From a virus: a stretch of DNA of 34,216 bases. The notes beneath the pieces are model-generated. The model saw only the letters and a list, made by a program, of their open reading frames with translations, was not told the origin of the DNA and searched no databases. Of the stretch, positions 10,901-16,401 are shown in pieces. The stretch covers positions 1 through 34,216 of IMG/VR virus record IMGVR_UViG_3300027734_000015, one strand, 5' to 3'. Positions within the stretch are counted from its first letter, which is position 1. Every line of letters begins with the position of its first letter. Position numbers and translations under genes: made by a program.

Positions 10901-11177
10901 TCAACAAATCTTTCGTCTGTTGTAACAATTCTTGCTCTGTCCCGTATCTTTGCTCGAAAGCCTTGCGCCAAGGGTGTCGGCTCACATATTCCGGCGTATT
11001 GCGTCCACTTCTGTGATGGGTCGGGCACAGGCATATCACAAACATTTCACCCTTGCGCTTGCTGCCACTCAGAACGTGGTGGATATCGCCATCGGATCGG
11101 GTTTCGTGGAAAAGCCTGCACACAATGCAGCCCAAGTCTCTGACCTTGGCGTGCCACTCTTGCTCAAGTTTTGTCAA
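10893..11177 (-). CDS. Ref-like (RecA-dependent) HNH nuclease
   Basis: This 94-aa protein has C17-x2-C20, a DIHHVL motif (H33, H34), CLCPTHHRS (C51, H54, H55) and a C-terminal helix with HPWRKAFEQRYGTEQELL. This is the HNH zinc-finger nuclease pattern of the P1 Ref / phage recombination-nuclease family, where the enzyme nicks at RecA-bound D-loops. It sits between NinB and the VRR-NUC gene, overlapping both, forming a recombination cassette. Confidence 0.82.
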   Translation of the reverse strand: MTKLEQEWHAKVRDLGCIVCRLFHETRSDGDIHHVLSGSKRKGEMFVICLCPTHHRSGRNTPEYVSRHPWRKAFEQRYGTEQELLQQTKDLLNA

Positions 11178-11466
11178 CGTCTACCCCTAACGCAACCGAA
11201 GCATGATTCAGCCAGTCTAGCCATTCGCTAAACTTTTCTCGTTCGTATTCGCTGGTTCGTCTGCCTAACATCACAATGCCCCCATAAAGCCCCGGAGCGA
11301 GTCTAGGAGCGACTTCGCCCTCGTAAGTAGCTGTGAGTATGTCCTTCCAGTCGTTTTCGTGCAGGAACGTCTTTTGACCGTTTATCAGCCATTCTTTCTG
11401 TTTTGACCAAGCCTTGAGGATTCGCCATTGCGCCGCGTTTTGTTCAACGGTGCGCTTAGTATTCAT
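11164..11466 (-). CDS. ninB: NinB-like recombination protein
   Basis: This 100-aa product matches the core of NinB (lambda Orf): RTVEQNAAQWRILKAWSKQ, ENDWKDILTA, LAPGLYGGIVMLGRRTSEYEREKFSEWLDW and the final GVDVD. NinB helps load RecA or annealing proteins on SSB-coated DNA. Lambda Orf is 146 aa, so about 40 N-terminal residues are missing if the ATG at 11466 is used. The longer frame (to 11610) runs inside the GNAT gene, and its extra residues do not look like NinB. The true start overlaps the GNAT stop by 11 bp. Confidence 0.82.
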   Translation of the reverse strand: MNTKRTVEQNAAQWRILKAWSKQKEWLINGQKTFLHENDWKDILTATYEGEVAPRLAPGLYGGIVMLGRRTSEYEREKFSEWLDWLNHASVALGVDVDKT

Positions 11467-11866
11467 AGTTAATTGTTGTTCTGTTGACTTGAAGCACCTT
11501 TGCGCCATTGCGTAGATGGAAGTCTCGCGCCATGTCCGTTTTGGGTGACATCGTAATAACTTTATCTTCCCGATACCTTGCAAGAACGGCTTGCACAAGT
11601 TTCTGCCCACAACCTTTTTCGTAACTCCAAATTGAATACAAGATAACTTTCATGCCATCTTGGTTGTAGTTTTCAACTTGCAATAATTCACGCTCAGTTT
11701 TTGGGATGTTGAGCCTGTACGAACAGCAAACGATTGCACCTATGCGCTGTTCCTCAAGCCACATATAAACACGACTAAACGGGCTAACTTTTTTGTGCGG
11801 GCTGATCTTTGGGCGCACAGGGTCATCAAGCAGGATCGGATCGGGTTCAAGTAGTCTGACTAGCAT
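11456..11866 (-). CDS. GNAT-fold acetyltransferase-like protein
   Basis: In this 136-aa protein the central part has WLEEQRIGAIVCCSYRL, and the C-terminal half SIWSYEKGCGQKLVQAVLARYRED followed by MARDFHLRNGAKVL, a GNAT motif A/B pattern with a degenerate Gln/Arg-x-x-Gly-x-Gly acetyl-CoA loop (EKGCGQKL). The substrate is unknown. It lies upstream of and overlaps ninB, and it overlaps the 131-aa protein upstream by 7 bp. Confidence 0.75.
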   Translation of the reverse strand: MLVRLLEPDPILLDDPVRPKISPHKKVSPFSRVYMWLEEQRIGAIVCCSYRLNIPKTERELLQVENYNQDGMKVILYSIWSYEKGCGQKLVQAVLARYREDKVITMSPKTDMARDFHLRNGAKVLQVNRTTINYEY

Positions 11867-12255
11867 CCGTTTTTCTTCCGCAGCTTGTTTTCAACCATTT
11901 CGACGCATCGACTCCAAACGTCTATTCGTAAGTAACAATCGTGCTTTTCTTCATCCGTCAGCCCAACCCATTCGCGCTTTTTCTTACCATTAAAAAAACC
12001 AGTCATGTAGGCAATGGTAAGTTCATCAGGCTCTTGCTTCTCTGCCTCTGCGATGGCTTCTTGCAGGGCAGCGATGGCCGAATCAATCTCTACATTGGAT
12101 TTGTCTGCACCGCAAGTGCAATCATCTCCCGCTTGGTCATTAGCACACCCATCCTTATCTTTTGGGCATGAATACCAGCTATCTTCACAGGAGTAGTGTT
12201 TTCGCCGGTTGTTGTTCAGCACCTCCAGCACCTGTTTCATTGTTTCAATGCTCAT
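11860..12255 (-). CDS. Cys-rich hypothetical early protein
   Basis: This 131-aa protein starts with a helix (MSIETMKQVLEVLNNN). A Cys-rich segment follows (about 23-48, with CEDSWYSCPKDKDGCAN and DDCTCGAD), probably binding metal, then a helix and a C-terminal part with GFFNGKKKREWVGLTDEEK. The layout, with a modular centre between conserved ends, is common in early-operon phage proteins of unknown role. It overlaps the winged-helix gene by 4 bp. Confidence 0.75.
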   Translation of the reverse strand: MSIETMKQVLEVLNNNRRKHYSCEDSWYSCPKDKDGCANDQAGDDCTCGADKSNVEIDSAIAALQEAIAEAEKQEPDELTIAYMTGFFNGKKKREWVGLTDEEKHDCYLRIDVWSRCVEMVENKLRKKNGC

Positions 12256-12560
12256 TTACGCACCCATACGCGGCACATACGGCCTGACGCGCCTTTCTTT
12301 TTGCCATCGGGGTAAGCCAAGTCCAGCCGTTCTAGTTCGCTCATCCTTCGAGCGACTGCGTTGTGATCTAGGTCTGTGCGGGCAGCTATGTCATAGATCG
12401 TGCCGGGAAGGTGTAGCGCTTGCAGGATGATGCCATGGTGCTTAGTGGCTAGTTCTGCTGCCTGATCCGCTGCGGCATGGCTGGTGTCGGGATCGGTGTT
12501 GCGTACACGCGGAAACTGCAAGTTGGGAAACCATTTATCTAACATCATTTTTTTATCCAT
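12252..12560 (-). CDS. winged-helix DNA-binding protein
   Basis: This 102-aa protein begins near DPDTSHAAADQAAELATKHHGIILQAL and continues GTIYDIAARTDLDHNAVARRMSELERLDLAYPDG, a helix-turn-helix plus wing ending in CRVWVRK. This small phage winged-helix family is usually found near replication genes. It may be a regulator or replication accessory; nothing in the sequence decides. It overlaps the next gene upstream by 16 bp. Confidence 0.8.
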   Translation of the reverse strand: MDKKMMLDKWFPNLQFPRVRNTDPDTSHAAADQAAELATKHHGIILQALHLPGTIYDIAARTDLDHNAVARRMSELERLDLAYPDGKKKGASGRMCRVWVRK

Positions 12561-12676
12561 TCATAGAAAAGGTTGTTTTCATGTGCCCTCACTTCTACTA
12601 CTTGAAACTCAGCAGAAAAAGCCCTCACGATCTCGGCTGATTCGGGCATAGCTGCTGCCCGTTCTTCTCGCGTCAT
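12545..12676 (-). CDS. small early protein, start uncertain
   Basis: The reading frame contains SWRERVATAVRVQG, MTREERAAAMPESAEIVRAF and a tail ending FYEWIKK, and it looks like a real small phage protein. The ATG at 12676 gives 43 aa. GTG codons at 12691 and 12685 would add a few residues, and the frame stays open to 12826, inside the replication-protein gene. The related-looking part begins before the ATG, so a GTG start or reinitiation after the upstream stop (12718) is possible. Confidence 0.55.
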   Translation of the reverse strand: MTREERAAAMPESAEIVRAFSAEFQVVEVRAHENNLFYEWIKK

Positions 12677-12717
12677 ACCCTGCACGCGCACCGCTGTTGC
12701 TACTCTTTCCCGCCAAC

Positions 12718-13062
12718 TTACGCGGCCTGTAACCGCATGCGATACTGGAACATATCCTCGCCCGGTCTTGCCGGTACTCCGACCTTCCTGCCGTGTTCCA
12801 TCGTAAGCTGATCGCTTGTCCACCATGCCACTACCTTTTTCTCAGGCATCGAAATTTCATCGTCAAAGCGTTCGCCATTCAACCAAGACGCAGGGTGTGG
12901 AATGTATTGCTTGTCCCTTCCTTCAGCCGCCCACATCCGCACATGGTCATCAATCGCCTGTAGTGCTTTCTGTTGCTGCTCGGCAGTAAGGCGCGACCAT
13001 GCTTTGACTGCATCCTTGCGTGCTACTTTTTTGGGGTACTTGCTGTAGAAGTCGTCAAACAT
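12718..13062 (-). CDS. replication protein O-like C-terminal domain protein
   Basis: This 114-aa protein begins MFDDFYSKYPKKVARK and contains DAVKAWSRLTAEQQQKALQAI, then YIPHPASWLNGERFDDEI. This pattern is common as the C-terminal part of phage replication initiation proteins (O-like, DnaT-like) that contact host DnaB. Here it stands alone, without the usual N-terminal origin-binding domain. It has a good GGAGG site before its start. The first 14 codons recur, diverged, at 13641-13682, on the other side of the GNAT gene. Confidence 0.78.
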   Translation of the reverse strand: MFDDFYSKYPKKVARKDAVKAWSRLTAEQQQKALQAIDDHVRMWAAEGRDKQYIPHPASWLNGERFDDEISMPEKKVVAWWTSDQLTMEHGRKVGVPARPGEDMFQYRMRLQAA

Positions 13063-13076
13063 TTTTTTGCCTCCAT
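13021..13076. repeat. diverged direct repeat, copy A (start of the O-like gene)
   Basis: These 56 bp align without gaps to 13641-13696 (offset 620), with 48 of 56 bases equal by eye. The copy holds the ribosome site and first 14 codons of the O-like gene, plus a trace of the end of the small gene that normally precedes it. Confidence 0.9.
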
Positions 13077-13092
13077 TTTTTTATATTTTCTT

Positions 13093-13635
13093 TTATAACA
13101 AACACAACAAAAAATCATTTGGGTCATACCGATAAATATTTATTAATCTCTTACTTGTTTGCTTCCATGTGTTTTTGTGGGATATGCCATTTCGTTTAGC
13201 AATACAAACCCATCCCATGTGTTGCCAAAATAAATTTGATTCAAGGTCATCCGCACAACCTGCGCTAAAAGCCATTGTGCCTTGCGTTTTACCGTACTCT
13301 ACAACAGTATCTAACAGCAATCTTCCTCTTAACAATTTTCTAGCATCTGTTTGCAAACAAATTTGTGCAATTTTTCCTGATTTTGTTATTGCGTTTGGTA
13401 TTCCAAAACTTGCCAAACAAAATCCTACTAAATCACCGTTGCATTCAATAACAAATAATTTGTCATTACAAACATTGCTCCATCTATCGCCGGTTTTTAT
13501 GCCTGTAATCGCAGATTCATAAGCCATCTTTGGAATAAATCCAATGCTACGATTTTCTTTCTTGGATAAAGAAATAATATAATTTAAATCTTCTATTTTA
13601 GAAAACCTTACAACACCTAAGTCAATGTCAAACAT
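13093..13635 (-). CDS. AT-rich GNAT acetyltransferase-like protein, probably acquired
   Basis: This 180-aa protein is visibly richer in AT than its neighbours. It opens as GNATs do (VVRFSKIEDLNYIISLSKKE) and continues FVIECNGDLVGFCLASFG, IAQICLQTDARKLLRGRLLLDTVVEYGK (motif A region), FSAGCADDLESNLFWQHMGWVCIAK. The glycine loop is degenerate (RKLLRGRLL). Similar phage GNAT-type genes exist, with unknown substrates. The gene lies between two diverged copies of the replication-gene start, and its own start shares 17 identical bases with that gene, so it looks like a recent insertion. Confidence 0.75.
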   Translation of the reverse strand: MFDIDLGVVRFSKIEDLNYIISLSKKENRSIGFIPKMAYESAITGIKTGDRWSNVCNDKLFVIECNGDLVGFCLASFGIPNAITKSGKIAQICLQTDARKLLRGRLLLDTVVEYGKTQGTMAFSAGCADDLESNLFWQHMGWVCIAKRNGISHKNTWKQTSKRLINIYRYDPNDFLLCLL

Positions 13636-13682
13636 TTTTTTGCTACTTTTTTTGGGTATTTTGAATAGAACTCGTCAAACAT
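13617..13682 (-). pseudogene. truncated duplicate of the O-like gene start
   Basis: From the ATG at 13682 the frame reads MFDEFYSKYPKKVA, as in the intact gene at 13062 apart from D4 changed to E, then two Lys and five unrelated residues before a TAG at 13617-13619. Nearly all base differences from the intact copy are silent, including a Ser codon change from AGC to TCA. It therefore derives from a related but long-separated gene, not from a fresh duplication. Confidence 0.8.
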
Positions 13683-13696
13683 TTTTTAGCCTCCAT
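13641..13696. repeat. diverged direct repeat, copy B
   Basis: This is the partner of 13021-13076. It is richer in AT than copy A, like the GNAT gene beside it, which suggests that copy B and the GNAT gene arrived together from a relative. Confidence 0.9.
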
Positions 13697-13792
13697 CTCT
13701 CTAATGTCCATTGCTGCATCTGCTACACCGTGCCAATCTTCTTGCCGAACTTTCAGTAACAGGTAAGCAAGCATTACTTCTTTGTCTGTCAT
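13643..13792 (-). CDS. small early protein, 49 aa
   Basis: It starts MTDKEVMLAYLLLKVRQEDW and continues HGVADAAMDIREMEAKK, a compact helical protein of a kind common in phage early operons; its function is unknown. AAGGAG precedes the ATG at 13792, which overlaps the upstream stop by 4 bp. Its last codons run in another frame through copy B of the repeat. Copy A carries a matching tail after MEAKKCLT, so its original end lay next to the replication gene. Confidence 0.75.
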   Translation of the reverse strand: MTDKEVMLAYLLLKVRQEDWHGVADAAMDIREMEAKKCLTSSIQNTQKK

Positions 13793-14001
13793 ACCTTCTC
13801 CTTGTAGTTACTGCTATCTGCTCTTTGGTGAGCGCACGTAGCCTTAGCCAGTACGCCCTTTAGTCTGCTCTTCGGAGCCGCGACACGCGACAGTCTTTCG
13901 GTCAGAGGCACTATCTTCGCCACCTCTCTGCGTGCTGTTGCAGACCTTAGCCACCAGTAGCACTTTCCACTCATGTCGCTGTTGCTTTCATTGCCCAACA
14001 T
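13789..14001 (-). CDS. possible early protein in the position of lambda cII
   Basis: A 70-residue frame from the ATG at 14001 contains MSGKCYWWLRSATARREV and ends with HQRADSSNYKEKV, its stop overlapping the next ATG. It is basic, has no ribosome site that I can see, and belongs to no family I recognise. An inner ATG at 13974 is an alternative start. The coupled stop supports it; the missing ribosome site counts against it. Confidence 0.45.
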   Translation of the reverse strand: MLGNESNSDMSGKCYWWLRSATARREVAKIVPLTERLSRVAAPKSRLKGVLAKATCAHQRADSSNYKEKV

Positions 14002-14019
14002 GGTGTAGCCCAAAAGAAA

Positions 14020-14103
14020 AACCCTCTAGAAGAGGCTTACGGCTGCGGTGGCAAGTGGGTGAGTGACAAACCCAAAAACAACCGAAGCCCCTTCTAAAGG
14101 GTT
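14020..14103 (-). terminator. tandem terminator-like hairpins in the early leader (tR1-like position)
   Basis: AACCCTCTAGAAGAGGCTT (14020-14038) and AAGCCCCTTCTAAAGGGTT (14085-14103) are inverted repeats of each other (17 of 19), and each also folds alone (CCTCT/AGAGG; CCCTT/AAGGG). On the - strand the second small hairpin runs into a T-rich tail (complement of 14011-14020), a good intrinsic terminator. Between the Cro-like gene and the replication genes, this matches the place of lambda tR1. Together with 14104-14188, where I see no gene, it forms a leader of about 190 bp. Confidence 0.65.
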
Positions 14104-14188
14104 CTTCATCACTCTTTAGCGTTGCCACACGCCGCCCGATCTTTCTCTCGGACAAACACACAGTAAACAATTATTTTCTGTTTGTCAA

Positions 14189-14410
14189 CTACTGCTGTGG
14201 GACGATCTCTGCGACCAGTTCCTCAATGGGCACGTAGTCCGCAGGATTGACCTTCAGAGCGCCGCCGGTAATGACCTCCAACTTGTACGCTATGCCCTCG
14301 GGAATCTGCTTGCGCTTGACCCATTGGCTTACTGCCTGGCTCGTAATGCCCAATGCCTCGGCTAGTTTGCGACGGCTACCGAAATGCGCCTCTGCTTGCT
14401 TAACGTCCAT
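14189..14410 (-). CDS. Cro-like helix-turn-helix regulator
   Basis: This 73-aa protein carries SRRKLAEALGITSQAVSQWVKRKQIPEGIAYKLEVITGG (about 12-50), the helix-turn-helix of the Cro/YdaS family. The AGGAGG site before the ATG at 14410 is the strongest in the window. It is the first gene of the leftward early operon and probably represses the divergent promoters in 14411-14591. No larger CI-type partner is present, so it may be the only phage-encoded switch protein. Confidence 0.87.
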   Translation of the reverse strand: MDVKQAEAHFGSRRKLAEALGITSQAVSQWVKRKQIPEGIAYKLEVITGGALKVNPADYVPIEELVAEIVPQQ

Positions 14411-14422
14411 ACCGCCTCCTGT

Positions 14423-14432
14423 AAGTTAACTT
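14423..14432. promoter_or_regulatory. palindrome before the Cro-like gene
   Basis: AAGTTAACTT is a perfect 10-bp palindrome just upstream of the ribosome site of the regulator gene, followed by CTTG-CAAA-CAAG (14430-14441). It may be a regulator binding site or part of the leader RNA. Confidence 0.4.
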
Positions 14433-14439
14433 GCAAACA

Positions 14440-14469
14440 AGCGTAACCTATGTAAACCTATGTTGTCAA
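14440..14469 (-). promoter_or_regulatory. leftward early promoter with two operator-like repeats
   Basis: On the - strand a perfect TTGACA (complement of 14464-14469) lies 18 bp from TACGCT (14440-14445), a weak -10. AACCTATGT occurs at 14445-14453 and again at 14455-14463, 10 bp apart (one helical turn), filling the spacer. Binding there would block the promoter, so this is a likely operator for the Cro-like protein. Confidence 0.6.
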
Positions 14470-14520
14470 GCTGTGTGGATTTAGTTAAGAATACTTTACA
14501 ATTTTCCTTTGCAACAAGTG

Positions 14521-15156: not shown

Positions 15157-15227
15157 ACGGCGACCGCGCAGTAGTCATCGGCTTCACCATCATCTTTCTA
15201 CTTATTATCACGGGGGTACTAGCATGA
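15153..15227 (+). CDS. 24-aa single-span membrane peptide
   Basis: Translates as MNGDRAVVIGFT followed by a hydrophobic run (IIFLLIITGVLA) long enough to span the membrane. It is joined by ATGA overlaps to both neighbours (15153-15156 and 15224-15227), which argues that it is translated. Its role is unknown. Confidence 0.65.
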   Translation: MNGDRAVVIGFTIIFLLIITGVLA

Positions 15228-15790
15228 GCGTTTACACAAAACTGATGCAGGCACGGCTGTTTTTGCAAGCCACGAAGTTGACCAAGTCGGGCGAAAACAA
15301 GTTTGCCGTATACAAATATTTTGAGTTGGGCGACTTCCTGCCCACCGTCCAAGAAATCTTTCATAACTTGGGACTGTGCGGAGTTGTCAGCTACACCGCC
15401 GACATTGCCCGTTTGACCATCATCGACACCGAAGATGGCTCGCAACTCGAGATCACCTCGCCTATGGGTAGCGCCGCCTTGAAGGGATGCCACGAAGTCC
15501 AAAACATCGGGGCAGTCGAAACCTACCAGCGCCGCTATCTTTGGGTTACGGCAATGGAAATCGTCGAGCATGATGTGCTAGATGCGACTAACGGCAAGGA
15601 TACCCCTCAGAAACGCTTAGATTCGTTGCCACAGCTACTTGAAGCAATCAACACAGCTAACACAGCAGATGAATTGAAACTGTTCTACGCGCAAGCATAT
15701 CGCGCTGCAAAAAATGTTGAAGATACCGACGCAATGCAAAAAATTGTTGCTGCCAAAAATTCCCGCAAAGCCGAACTGGAGGCAGCATGA
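15224..15790 (+). CDS. erf: ERF-type single-strand annealing protein
   Basis: This 188-aa protein has the ERF family core: KFAVYKYFELGDFLPTVQEIFHNLGL near residues 26-51, then LTIIDTEDGSQLEITSPMG, LKGCHEVQNIGAVETYQRRYLWVTAMEI, and a mostly helical C-terminal third. ERF proteins (P22 Erf family) form rings that anneal single strands. It overlaps the exonuclease gene by 4 bp; together they are a lambda-Red-like pair that can make concatemers for packaging. Confidence 0.9.
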   Translation: MSVYTKLMQARLFLQATKLTKSGENKFAVYKYFELGDFLPTVQEIFHNLGLCGVVSYTADIARLTIIDTEDGSQLEITSPMGSAALKGCHEVQNIGAVETYQRRYLWVTAMEIVEHDVLDATNGKDTPQKRLDSLPQLLEAINTANTADELKLFYAQAYRAAKNVEDTDAMQKIVAAKNSRKAELEAA

Positions 15791-16401
15791 AAGTTTTGTC
15801 AATGCCGCAGGGTAGCCCCGAATGGCTTGCCGCCCGCGCCGGTAAAGTGACTGCTAGCCGGATCAACGATGTGATGGCGGCTAAGACCACAGCCGCTTAC
15901 CGGGATTACAGGGCGCAAATTGTGGCTGAGATTCTGACGGGTCAACCGCAGGAATCCGGTTTCACCAATGCTGCAATGCAATGGGGGACGGAGCAAGAAA
16001 AGTTTGCCCGCGCTGAATACGAAATGTTTTGCGCTTGGACGGTTGATGAGGTCGGGCTAGTCCTGCATCCGACGATTGAGCAAGGCGCAGCTAGTCCCGA
16101 CGGCTTAGTGTCTACCGATGGGCTAGTGGAAATCAAGTGTCCCAAGACTTCCACGCACCTGCAAACGTTGGTGGACAAAAAACAGCCTAGACAGTATGAA
16201 AATCAGATGCTTTGGCAGATGGCCTGCACAGGTCGGCAGTGGTGCGACTTTGTATCCTACGATCCGCGTTTGCCTGACGATCTACAGTTGTTTGTTCACC
16301 GGTTCGACCGCGATGAGAAACGCATCGAGGAAATCGAAGTAGCAGTAAAGCAGTTCCTGACTGAAACAAATGAAATGATTGACAACATAAGGACAAAATA
16401 A
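15787..16401 (+). CDS. YqaJ / lambda-type exonuclease
   Basis: This 204-aa protein has GSPEWLAARAGKVTAS at residues 9-24, MQWGTEQEKFARAEYE near 64-79, ASPDGLV with D105, and VEIKCPKT with E115 and K117. The D-x9-E-x-K spacing equals that of lambda exonuclease (D119, E129, K131). A trimer would resect 5' ends to feed the ERF protein. The stop overlaps the next ATG (TAATG). Confidence 0.92.
   Translation: MKVLSMPQGSPEWLAARAGKVTASRINDVMAAKTTAAYRDYRAQIVAEILTGQPQESGFTNAAMQWGTEQEKFARAEYEMFCAWTVDEVGLVLHPTIEQGAASPDGLVSTDGLVEIKCPKTSTHLQTLVDKKQPRQYENQMLWQMACTGRQWCDFVSYDPRLPDDLQLFVHRFDRDEKRIEEIEVAVKQFLTETNEMIDNIRTK

Follow-up and report, generated by a model that had tools for sequence, protein, structure and literature searches.

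In an IMG/VR virus record (IMGVR_UViG_3300027734_000015), an AT-rich gene for a GNAT-fold acetyltransferase lies between two similar copies of the start of an O-like gene. The question is how a gene came to be placed at this start while the genes on both sides stayed complete. The stretch of DNA that was analysed, here called the window, comprises 34,216 nucleotides. On its minus strand, the gene order is Cro-like, Betaproteobacteria-1 RNA, up49, copy B, GNAT, copy A, O-like, orf93, and orf102 (Table 1). The insert differs in base composition from its flanks (33% vs 51% GC); the GNAT gene has 33% GC and 27% GC3, the window 51%.

The product of the O-like gene matches phrog_270 over profile positions 179-256 of 383 only, and "replication gene", as the first-pass annotation called it, would be a fair but partial label. 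The RF02932 RNA points to a betaproteobacterial host; the phage group is probably betaproteobacterial. The open reading frames called over this RNA in relatives (57-130 aa, in several frames) are probably not genes.

Table 1. Features of the locus and their positions in the window
Feature	Position	Strand	Remarks
Cro/YdaS-like regulator	14189..14410	-	P22_Cro 2.4e-19; left border of cargo slot
Betaproteobacteria-1 RNA (RF02932)	13885..14005	-	77.9 bits vs gathering 49.4; follows Cro-like gene and precedes up49; left part of cargo slot
up49, 49-aa upstream gene	13643..13792	-	MTDKEVMLAYLLLKVRQEDWHGVADAAMDIREMEAKK plus lineage-specific tail CLTSSIQNTQKK; stop TAG 7 nt before GNAT ATG
Copy B	13641..13696	-	first allele of up49/O-like overlap: RBS GGAGG, 14 O-like codons, up49 stop
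21-codon remnant ORF	13617..13682	-	MFDEFYSKYPKKVAKKCLTLT and stop; started by copy B; overlaps GNAT start out of frame (translation)
Third copy of O-like start	13627..13643	-	GCAAAAAAATGTTTGAC; used as GNAT start; 17/17 identical to 13054-13070
GNAT-fold acetyltransferase cargo gene, 180 aa	13093..13635	-	33% GC; PF00583, AlphaFold model
Copy A	13021..13076	-	second allele of overlap; continues into intact O-like gene
O-like gene, 114 aa	12718..13062	-	C-terminal domain only of phage replication initiator
orf93	12545..12826	-	overlaps O-like by 109 nt
NinB/Orf recombination mediator	11164..11610	-	profile match
ERF single-strand annealing recombinase (Rad52-like)	15224..15790	+	PF04404, 3.8e-9
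YqaJ exonuclease, ERF partner	15787..16401	+	PF09588, 1.3e-27

The doubled overlap of up49 and the O-like gene

Copies A and B align without gaps, with 48 of 56 positions identical, and translation of both gives MFD[D/E]FYSKYPKKVA, just as the first-pass annotation had read them; its remaining sequence facts also hold. A repeat search extends the pair to 63 nt at 83%, self-BLAST gives an E value of about 1e-12, and the longest identical run is 16 nt. Seven of the 8 differences fall within the O-like frame, where they alter one residue (D4E); the base changes are thus nearly all silent, as had been claimed. Given 7 random substitutions, the probability of one amino acid change or fewer in the O frame is ~1e-4. 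Read in the up49 frame, the differences in the same region alter 5 residues, against 1 in the O frame.

The limits of the repeat are the ribosome site of the O-like gene (GGAGG) and the stop codon of up49; that is, the repeat is the up49/O-like overlap. The earlier description had overlooked this. In the empty state, the two genes share about 50 nt, and for a gene to lie between overlapping genes that are both kept whole, the overlap must exist in duplicate. This accounts for the length of the repeat and for where it ends, without a special insertion element. Because the overlap is present twice, up49 and the O-like gene both remain complete, in agreement with the earlier statement that the resident O-like gene is intact.

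Relatives were compared with and without cargo at the O-like start. The empty site is present in 26 related contigs, in which up49 directly overlaps the O-like gene with no insert. Of the contigs in which this O-like gene was found, only one lineage has the insert; it consists of the window and a second contig (L197) that is 99.93% identical to the window, with 7 SNPs over 10,380 bp (10.4 kb) and none in the insert or repeats. A self-repeat scan of the relatives found no repeat at the O-like start; the repeats of other relatives sit elsewhere. Immediately upstream of the O-like gene are found up49 (26), a DNA methylase (4), a TAGT glycosyltransferase (4), or none of these (3). Because these neighbours vary, the gene boundary is an exchange point, and to this extent the proposal that it acts as an insertion port is supported. 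A distant blastn search of window positions 12000-14500 against INPHARED gave no match, and the O-like gene was not found in 85,000 bacterial genomes.

Several other boundaries were seen during the comparison. In L023, L024, and L026, a PAPS-reductase-like insert lies at a second overlap, that of the O-like gene and orf93, and the N-terminus of orf93 is replaced by one read from the end of the insert (L023:5342-6180, and also in L024 and L026). L023 in addition contains one intergenic self-repeat. Contigs L143-L158 have no O-like gene at this place, and up49 there adjoins an orf93-like gene. Small up49-like proteins with the core DWHGVADAAMDIRE are widespread (L143-L196, in viral contigs of up to 169 kb), with C-terminal tails that are lineage-specific. 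Near-exact repeats at gene boundaries occur elsewhere as well (L017:2602-2636/2778-2812/2997-3045; L010:1864-1980/2902-3012; L147:3064-3096/3804-3836); in these three contigs, small accessory genes before ninB share modules at their starts (MSIEAMKQALEAL) and at their ends (AIRARGNE and AIEAKLREKNGG, each followed by the stop).

Standing alleles and a captured start

Over the 42 nt that lie inside the O-like gene, 7 sites distinguish copy A from copy B. For the same 42 nt, the pairwise median in the group is 6 (range 0-12). The nearest allele to copy B is that of L008 (4/42 differences), and thus copy B is nearer to another phage than to copy A (7/42); copy A differs from L025 and L030 at 2/42 sites each. 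The best identities are 91.1% for copy B (L008, tied with L037) and 94.6% for copy A (L025/L030). The O-like gene is nearest to L003 (95.0%), and for the 97 bp of up49 ahead of the overlap the best match is L008, at 95.9% identity, with a second best of 87.6%, although the nearest relative shifts often along these mosaic genomes. As the phages are mosaic throughout, it is not remarkable by itself that the nearest relative changes at the insert. Copy B no longer encodes O protein, so the differences between A and B most likely predate the insertion. On these sequence comparisons, the repeat is read not as a target-site duplication but as two natural alleles that were joined through recombination. 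The first-pass annotation had rejected such a duplication because the copies are not identical; this view is sustained, both copies diverged as functional starts of one gene, and the differences correspond to standing alleles.

We therefore favour, with a probability of roughly 60%, the reading that the locus is a recombination joint of two co-circulating variants of one phage group, with the GNAT cargo between them. The earlier proposal was instead that GNAT came in on a fragment of an AT-rich, long-diverged phage, together with the 5' end of that phage's O-like gene; recombination at the conserved start would have spared the resident gene. GNAT is indeed AT-rich and has AT-rich kin, copy B is lower in GC (32%) than copy A (39%), and one phage with 38% GC flanks (L046) has a stand-alone O-CTD gene followed by a GNAT gene whose DNA is among the closest (82%). 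However, comparison of copy B with the O-like gene of such relatives goes against this source: at 38/42, copy B is far closer to L008 than to the O-like start of L046 (MTFDIFWSKYPRKIAKR). Copy B is also continuous with a group-typical up49, which argues against its import with an AT-rich fragment, and the MFDEFYSKYPKKVAKK start is in no contig except this phage. An exact search for other phages with the FDEFYSKYPKKVAKK start likewise matched only this phage, and no phage carrying the proposed donor fragment was found. Finally, the distance between A and B is ordinary for the group, which argues against a long-diverged relative. Being continuous with that up49, copy B belongs to DNA of this group, and it does not have to have arrived together with the AT-rich GNAT. 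Thus, the diverged alleles, the intact gene, and the exchange point of the earlier interpretation stand, and its long-diverged donor is unlikely.

In-situ duplication would have the GNAT insertion double the overlap, by target-site duplication or template switch, after which the copies drifted. The duplicated piece is exactly what keeps both overlapping genes, and the 17-bp start copy resembles a fresh duplicate. Yet copy B, which has no O-like coding role, has kept the O reading while the up49 tail was altered (1 vs 5 residues); the region is unchanged in the near-identical L197; and the A/B differences match standing alleles of the group. This origin is quite improbable, and target-site duplication with post-insertion drift is rejected by the synonymous pattern.

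The 17-nt identity between the start of GNAT and that of the O-like gene, also reported earlier, is confirmed; it is the longest identical run between copy A and the GNAT start, and a further match (94%) lies at 13674-13690. Among 763 distinct ATG starts (-8..+9) from 36 group loci, only O-like starts reach 14/17, and those of other GNAT relatives do not exceed 11/17, though a few begin with MID. The uniqueness of the 17/17 match outside O-like starts suggests that GNAT took over the O-like leader and first codons, and the borrowed part would be the leader plus the first three codons (ATG TTT GAC). To judge from its sequence, GNAT has no good ribosome site of its own. Since the stop of up49 immediately precedes the GNAT start, translational coupling is likely, and GNAT is predicted to be translated, probably, by coupling to up49. 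Promoter- and terminator-like sites are at chance level, with none bracketing GNAT.

Copy B might also be kept for a function. It would then be under present selection as a short leader ORF that has a strong ribosome site and links the translation of GNAT to up49. The GGAGG site, the remnant ORF across the GNAT start, the close spacing of the up49 stop, and the poor ribosome site of GNAT itself are in keeping with such a role. Against it, conservation of the O frame is explained by the earlier life of copy B as an O start, and constraint cannot be measured in a single lineage; present selection on a leader is very unlikely. It is extremely improbable that the locus is a chimera in which assembly merged two phage strains that occurred together with a third that has GNAT. 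Such repeats can mislead assemblers and the sampled population has many similar alleles, but the same structure is present in two contigs 7 SNPs apart and the third start copy at the joint is not produced by simple repeat collapse.

The GNAT family and the cargo slot

The GNAT product scores 21.5 bits against PF00583 (gathering cut-off 20.7). Its AlphaFold model (pLDDT 81.5) has the GNAT fold and matches GNATs of the PDB in Foldseek with E values down to 1.7e-8; a search of the sequence against solved structures gave nothing significant. The family is present in 133 IMG/VR contigs, of which the best 80, at 68-100% identity, formed the analysis set. It has no match in INPHARED phages (about 50,000 deposited records) or in an anti-phage defence library, and only one MAG contig carries it among 85,000 bacterial genomes. 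In most carriers the gene is AT-rich (28-45% GC), usually lower than its flanks. At L046:1666-2580, in an AT-rich phage, a stand-alone O-CTD gene directly precedes a member of the same family, an independent O-GNAT neighbourhood. A second possible GNAT-fold ORF of 136 aa is present in the window (11456-11866, minus strand); it is kept in most relatives and weakly matches the malonyl-CoA decarboxylase C-terminal domain (E 0.006).

Among the 71 loci with sufficient upstream sequence, Mom lies directly upstream of GNAT in 15 and an ABC-ATPase-GNAT in 2; most GNAT family loci have no Mom neighbour. The Mom (PF25680) loci are L040, L051, L052, L061-L070, L072, and L076, in phages that are otherwise different, and the ABC-ATPase-GNAT fusion precedes GNAT in L054 and L058. 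PF25680 is matched by the genes adjoining GNAT in L040, L061, and L067. The window contains no Mom gene, and its GNAT does not match PF25680, i.e., it is not a Mom member. Mom and ABC-ATPase-GNAT have been described as DNA-base acylation enzymes, the second by prediction (PMC7824862).

The interval from Cro to the O-like gene is a cargo slot. A DNA-modification gene lies there in 21 of 33 relatives: an N6/N4 methylase in 9, TAGT in 6, Mom in 4, and a C5 methylase in 2, with none in 12, counts that are not independent because several of the 33 are near duplicates. Comparison of the cargo genes at the junction, as had been suggested, thus yields methylase, TAGT, Mom, and C5 methylase. Cargo mostly stands before up49 in the relatives and between up49 and the O-like gene in the window alone. 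These phages swap accessory genes, often DNA-modification genes, beside this replication gene, and the slot, with at least 4 kinds of DNA-modification gene, offers a natural series of anti-restriction swaps.

Because the slot holds mostly DNA-modification genes in relatives and the GNAT family occurs beside Mom and ABC-ATPase-GNAT, the role of GNAT is, by association, probably DNA modification against restriction. More tentatively, the family may be an undescribed partner of Mom-type/ABC-ATPase-GNAT base acylation, in a Cro-to-O slot whose genes are swapped through ERF-mediated overlap exchange. With more than 100 uncultured phage contigs, the family is a testable candidate for such a partner.

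Proposed history and comparison with known systems

For the favoured joint of two variants, one variant would have supplied the left half (up49 plus 14 O-like codons, copy B) and another the right half, which starts with the O-like ribosome site (copy A). From the alleles, empty sites, third start copy, and recombination genes that are observed, we infer an order of events and an enzyme responsible. First, GNAT would have joined at the O-like start and captured its translation start. Then, homeologous exchange with an L008-like phage would have swapped the upstream side, with a misaligned joint at GCA, codon 14 of the O-like gene. This two-step history would account for all three start copies. 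The flanking stretches are of intermediate identity (48/56), and the nearest relatives differ on the two sides. The intermediate of this history, in which the up49 leader would run straight into GNAT, was looked for and not found.

The event was probably brought about by enzymes that the phage itself encodes, namely the ERF annealing recombinase, the YqaJ exonuclease, and NinB. Rad52-like recombinases, an Erf included, build mosaics from diverged DNA, with help from Orf/NinB (PMC3945230, PMC2327257). The efficient pairing length reported for Red-beta is 23-27 nt, and recombination of a homology region with no identical run longer than 11 nt fell below the detection threshold (PMC3945230). Today's identical runs at the locus are 16-17 nt, against 23-27 nt for pairing, and the parental sequences may have shared more. 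Such short runs suggest that the event was rare or that longer homology outside the repeat was used.

The scars of gene uptake by phages are usually erased. Here, one can still read both parental junction alleles and the captured start codon, and the same genome encodes the recombination genes that were presumably responsible.

Among known systems, the locus resembles the relaxed (homeologous) exchange that phage recombinases of the Rad52 type carry out (De Paepe 2014, PMC3945230; Martinsohn 2008, PMC2327257) in the partly identical borders of the exchanged piece and in the ERF, exonuclease, and Orf/NinB that this phage encodes; it differs in the short homology (16-17 nt) and in the misaligned joint that doubled the overlap. 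As with morons and the accretion of accessory genes in mosaic temperate phages, the extra gene is foreign in composition and separates two genes that stand side by side in relatives. Unlike in morons, promoter and terminator signals do not rise above chance, the start is captured from the next gene, and two overlap alleles flank the cargo. With the conserved boundary-sequence idea of phage modular evolution, the locus shares exchange at a conserved gene boundary whose neighbours vary. In contrast to that scheme, overlapping genes form the boundary here, and the two parental alleles can still be seen. Mom (PF25680) and ABC-ATPase-GNAT are like the present gene in that all are GNAT-fold or GNAT-coupled, they are direct neighbours of the family in 17 of 71 loci, and Mom occupies the same cargo slot in L004, L014, L020, and L033; the GNAT of the window, a predicted acetyltransferase, differs from Mom in standing alone and in lacking a PF25680 match. 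Thus, cargo insertion by mosaic recombination is of a known kind, and what is new is the footprint that it left and the phage-specific, Mom-linked GNAT family.
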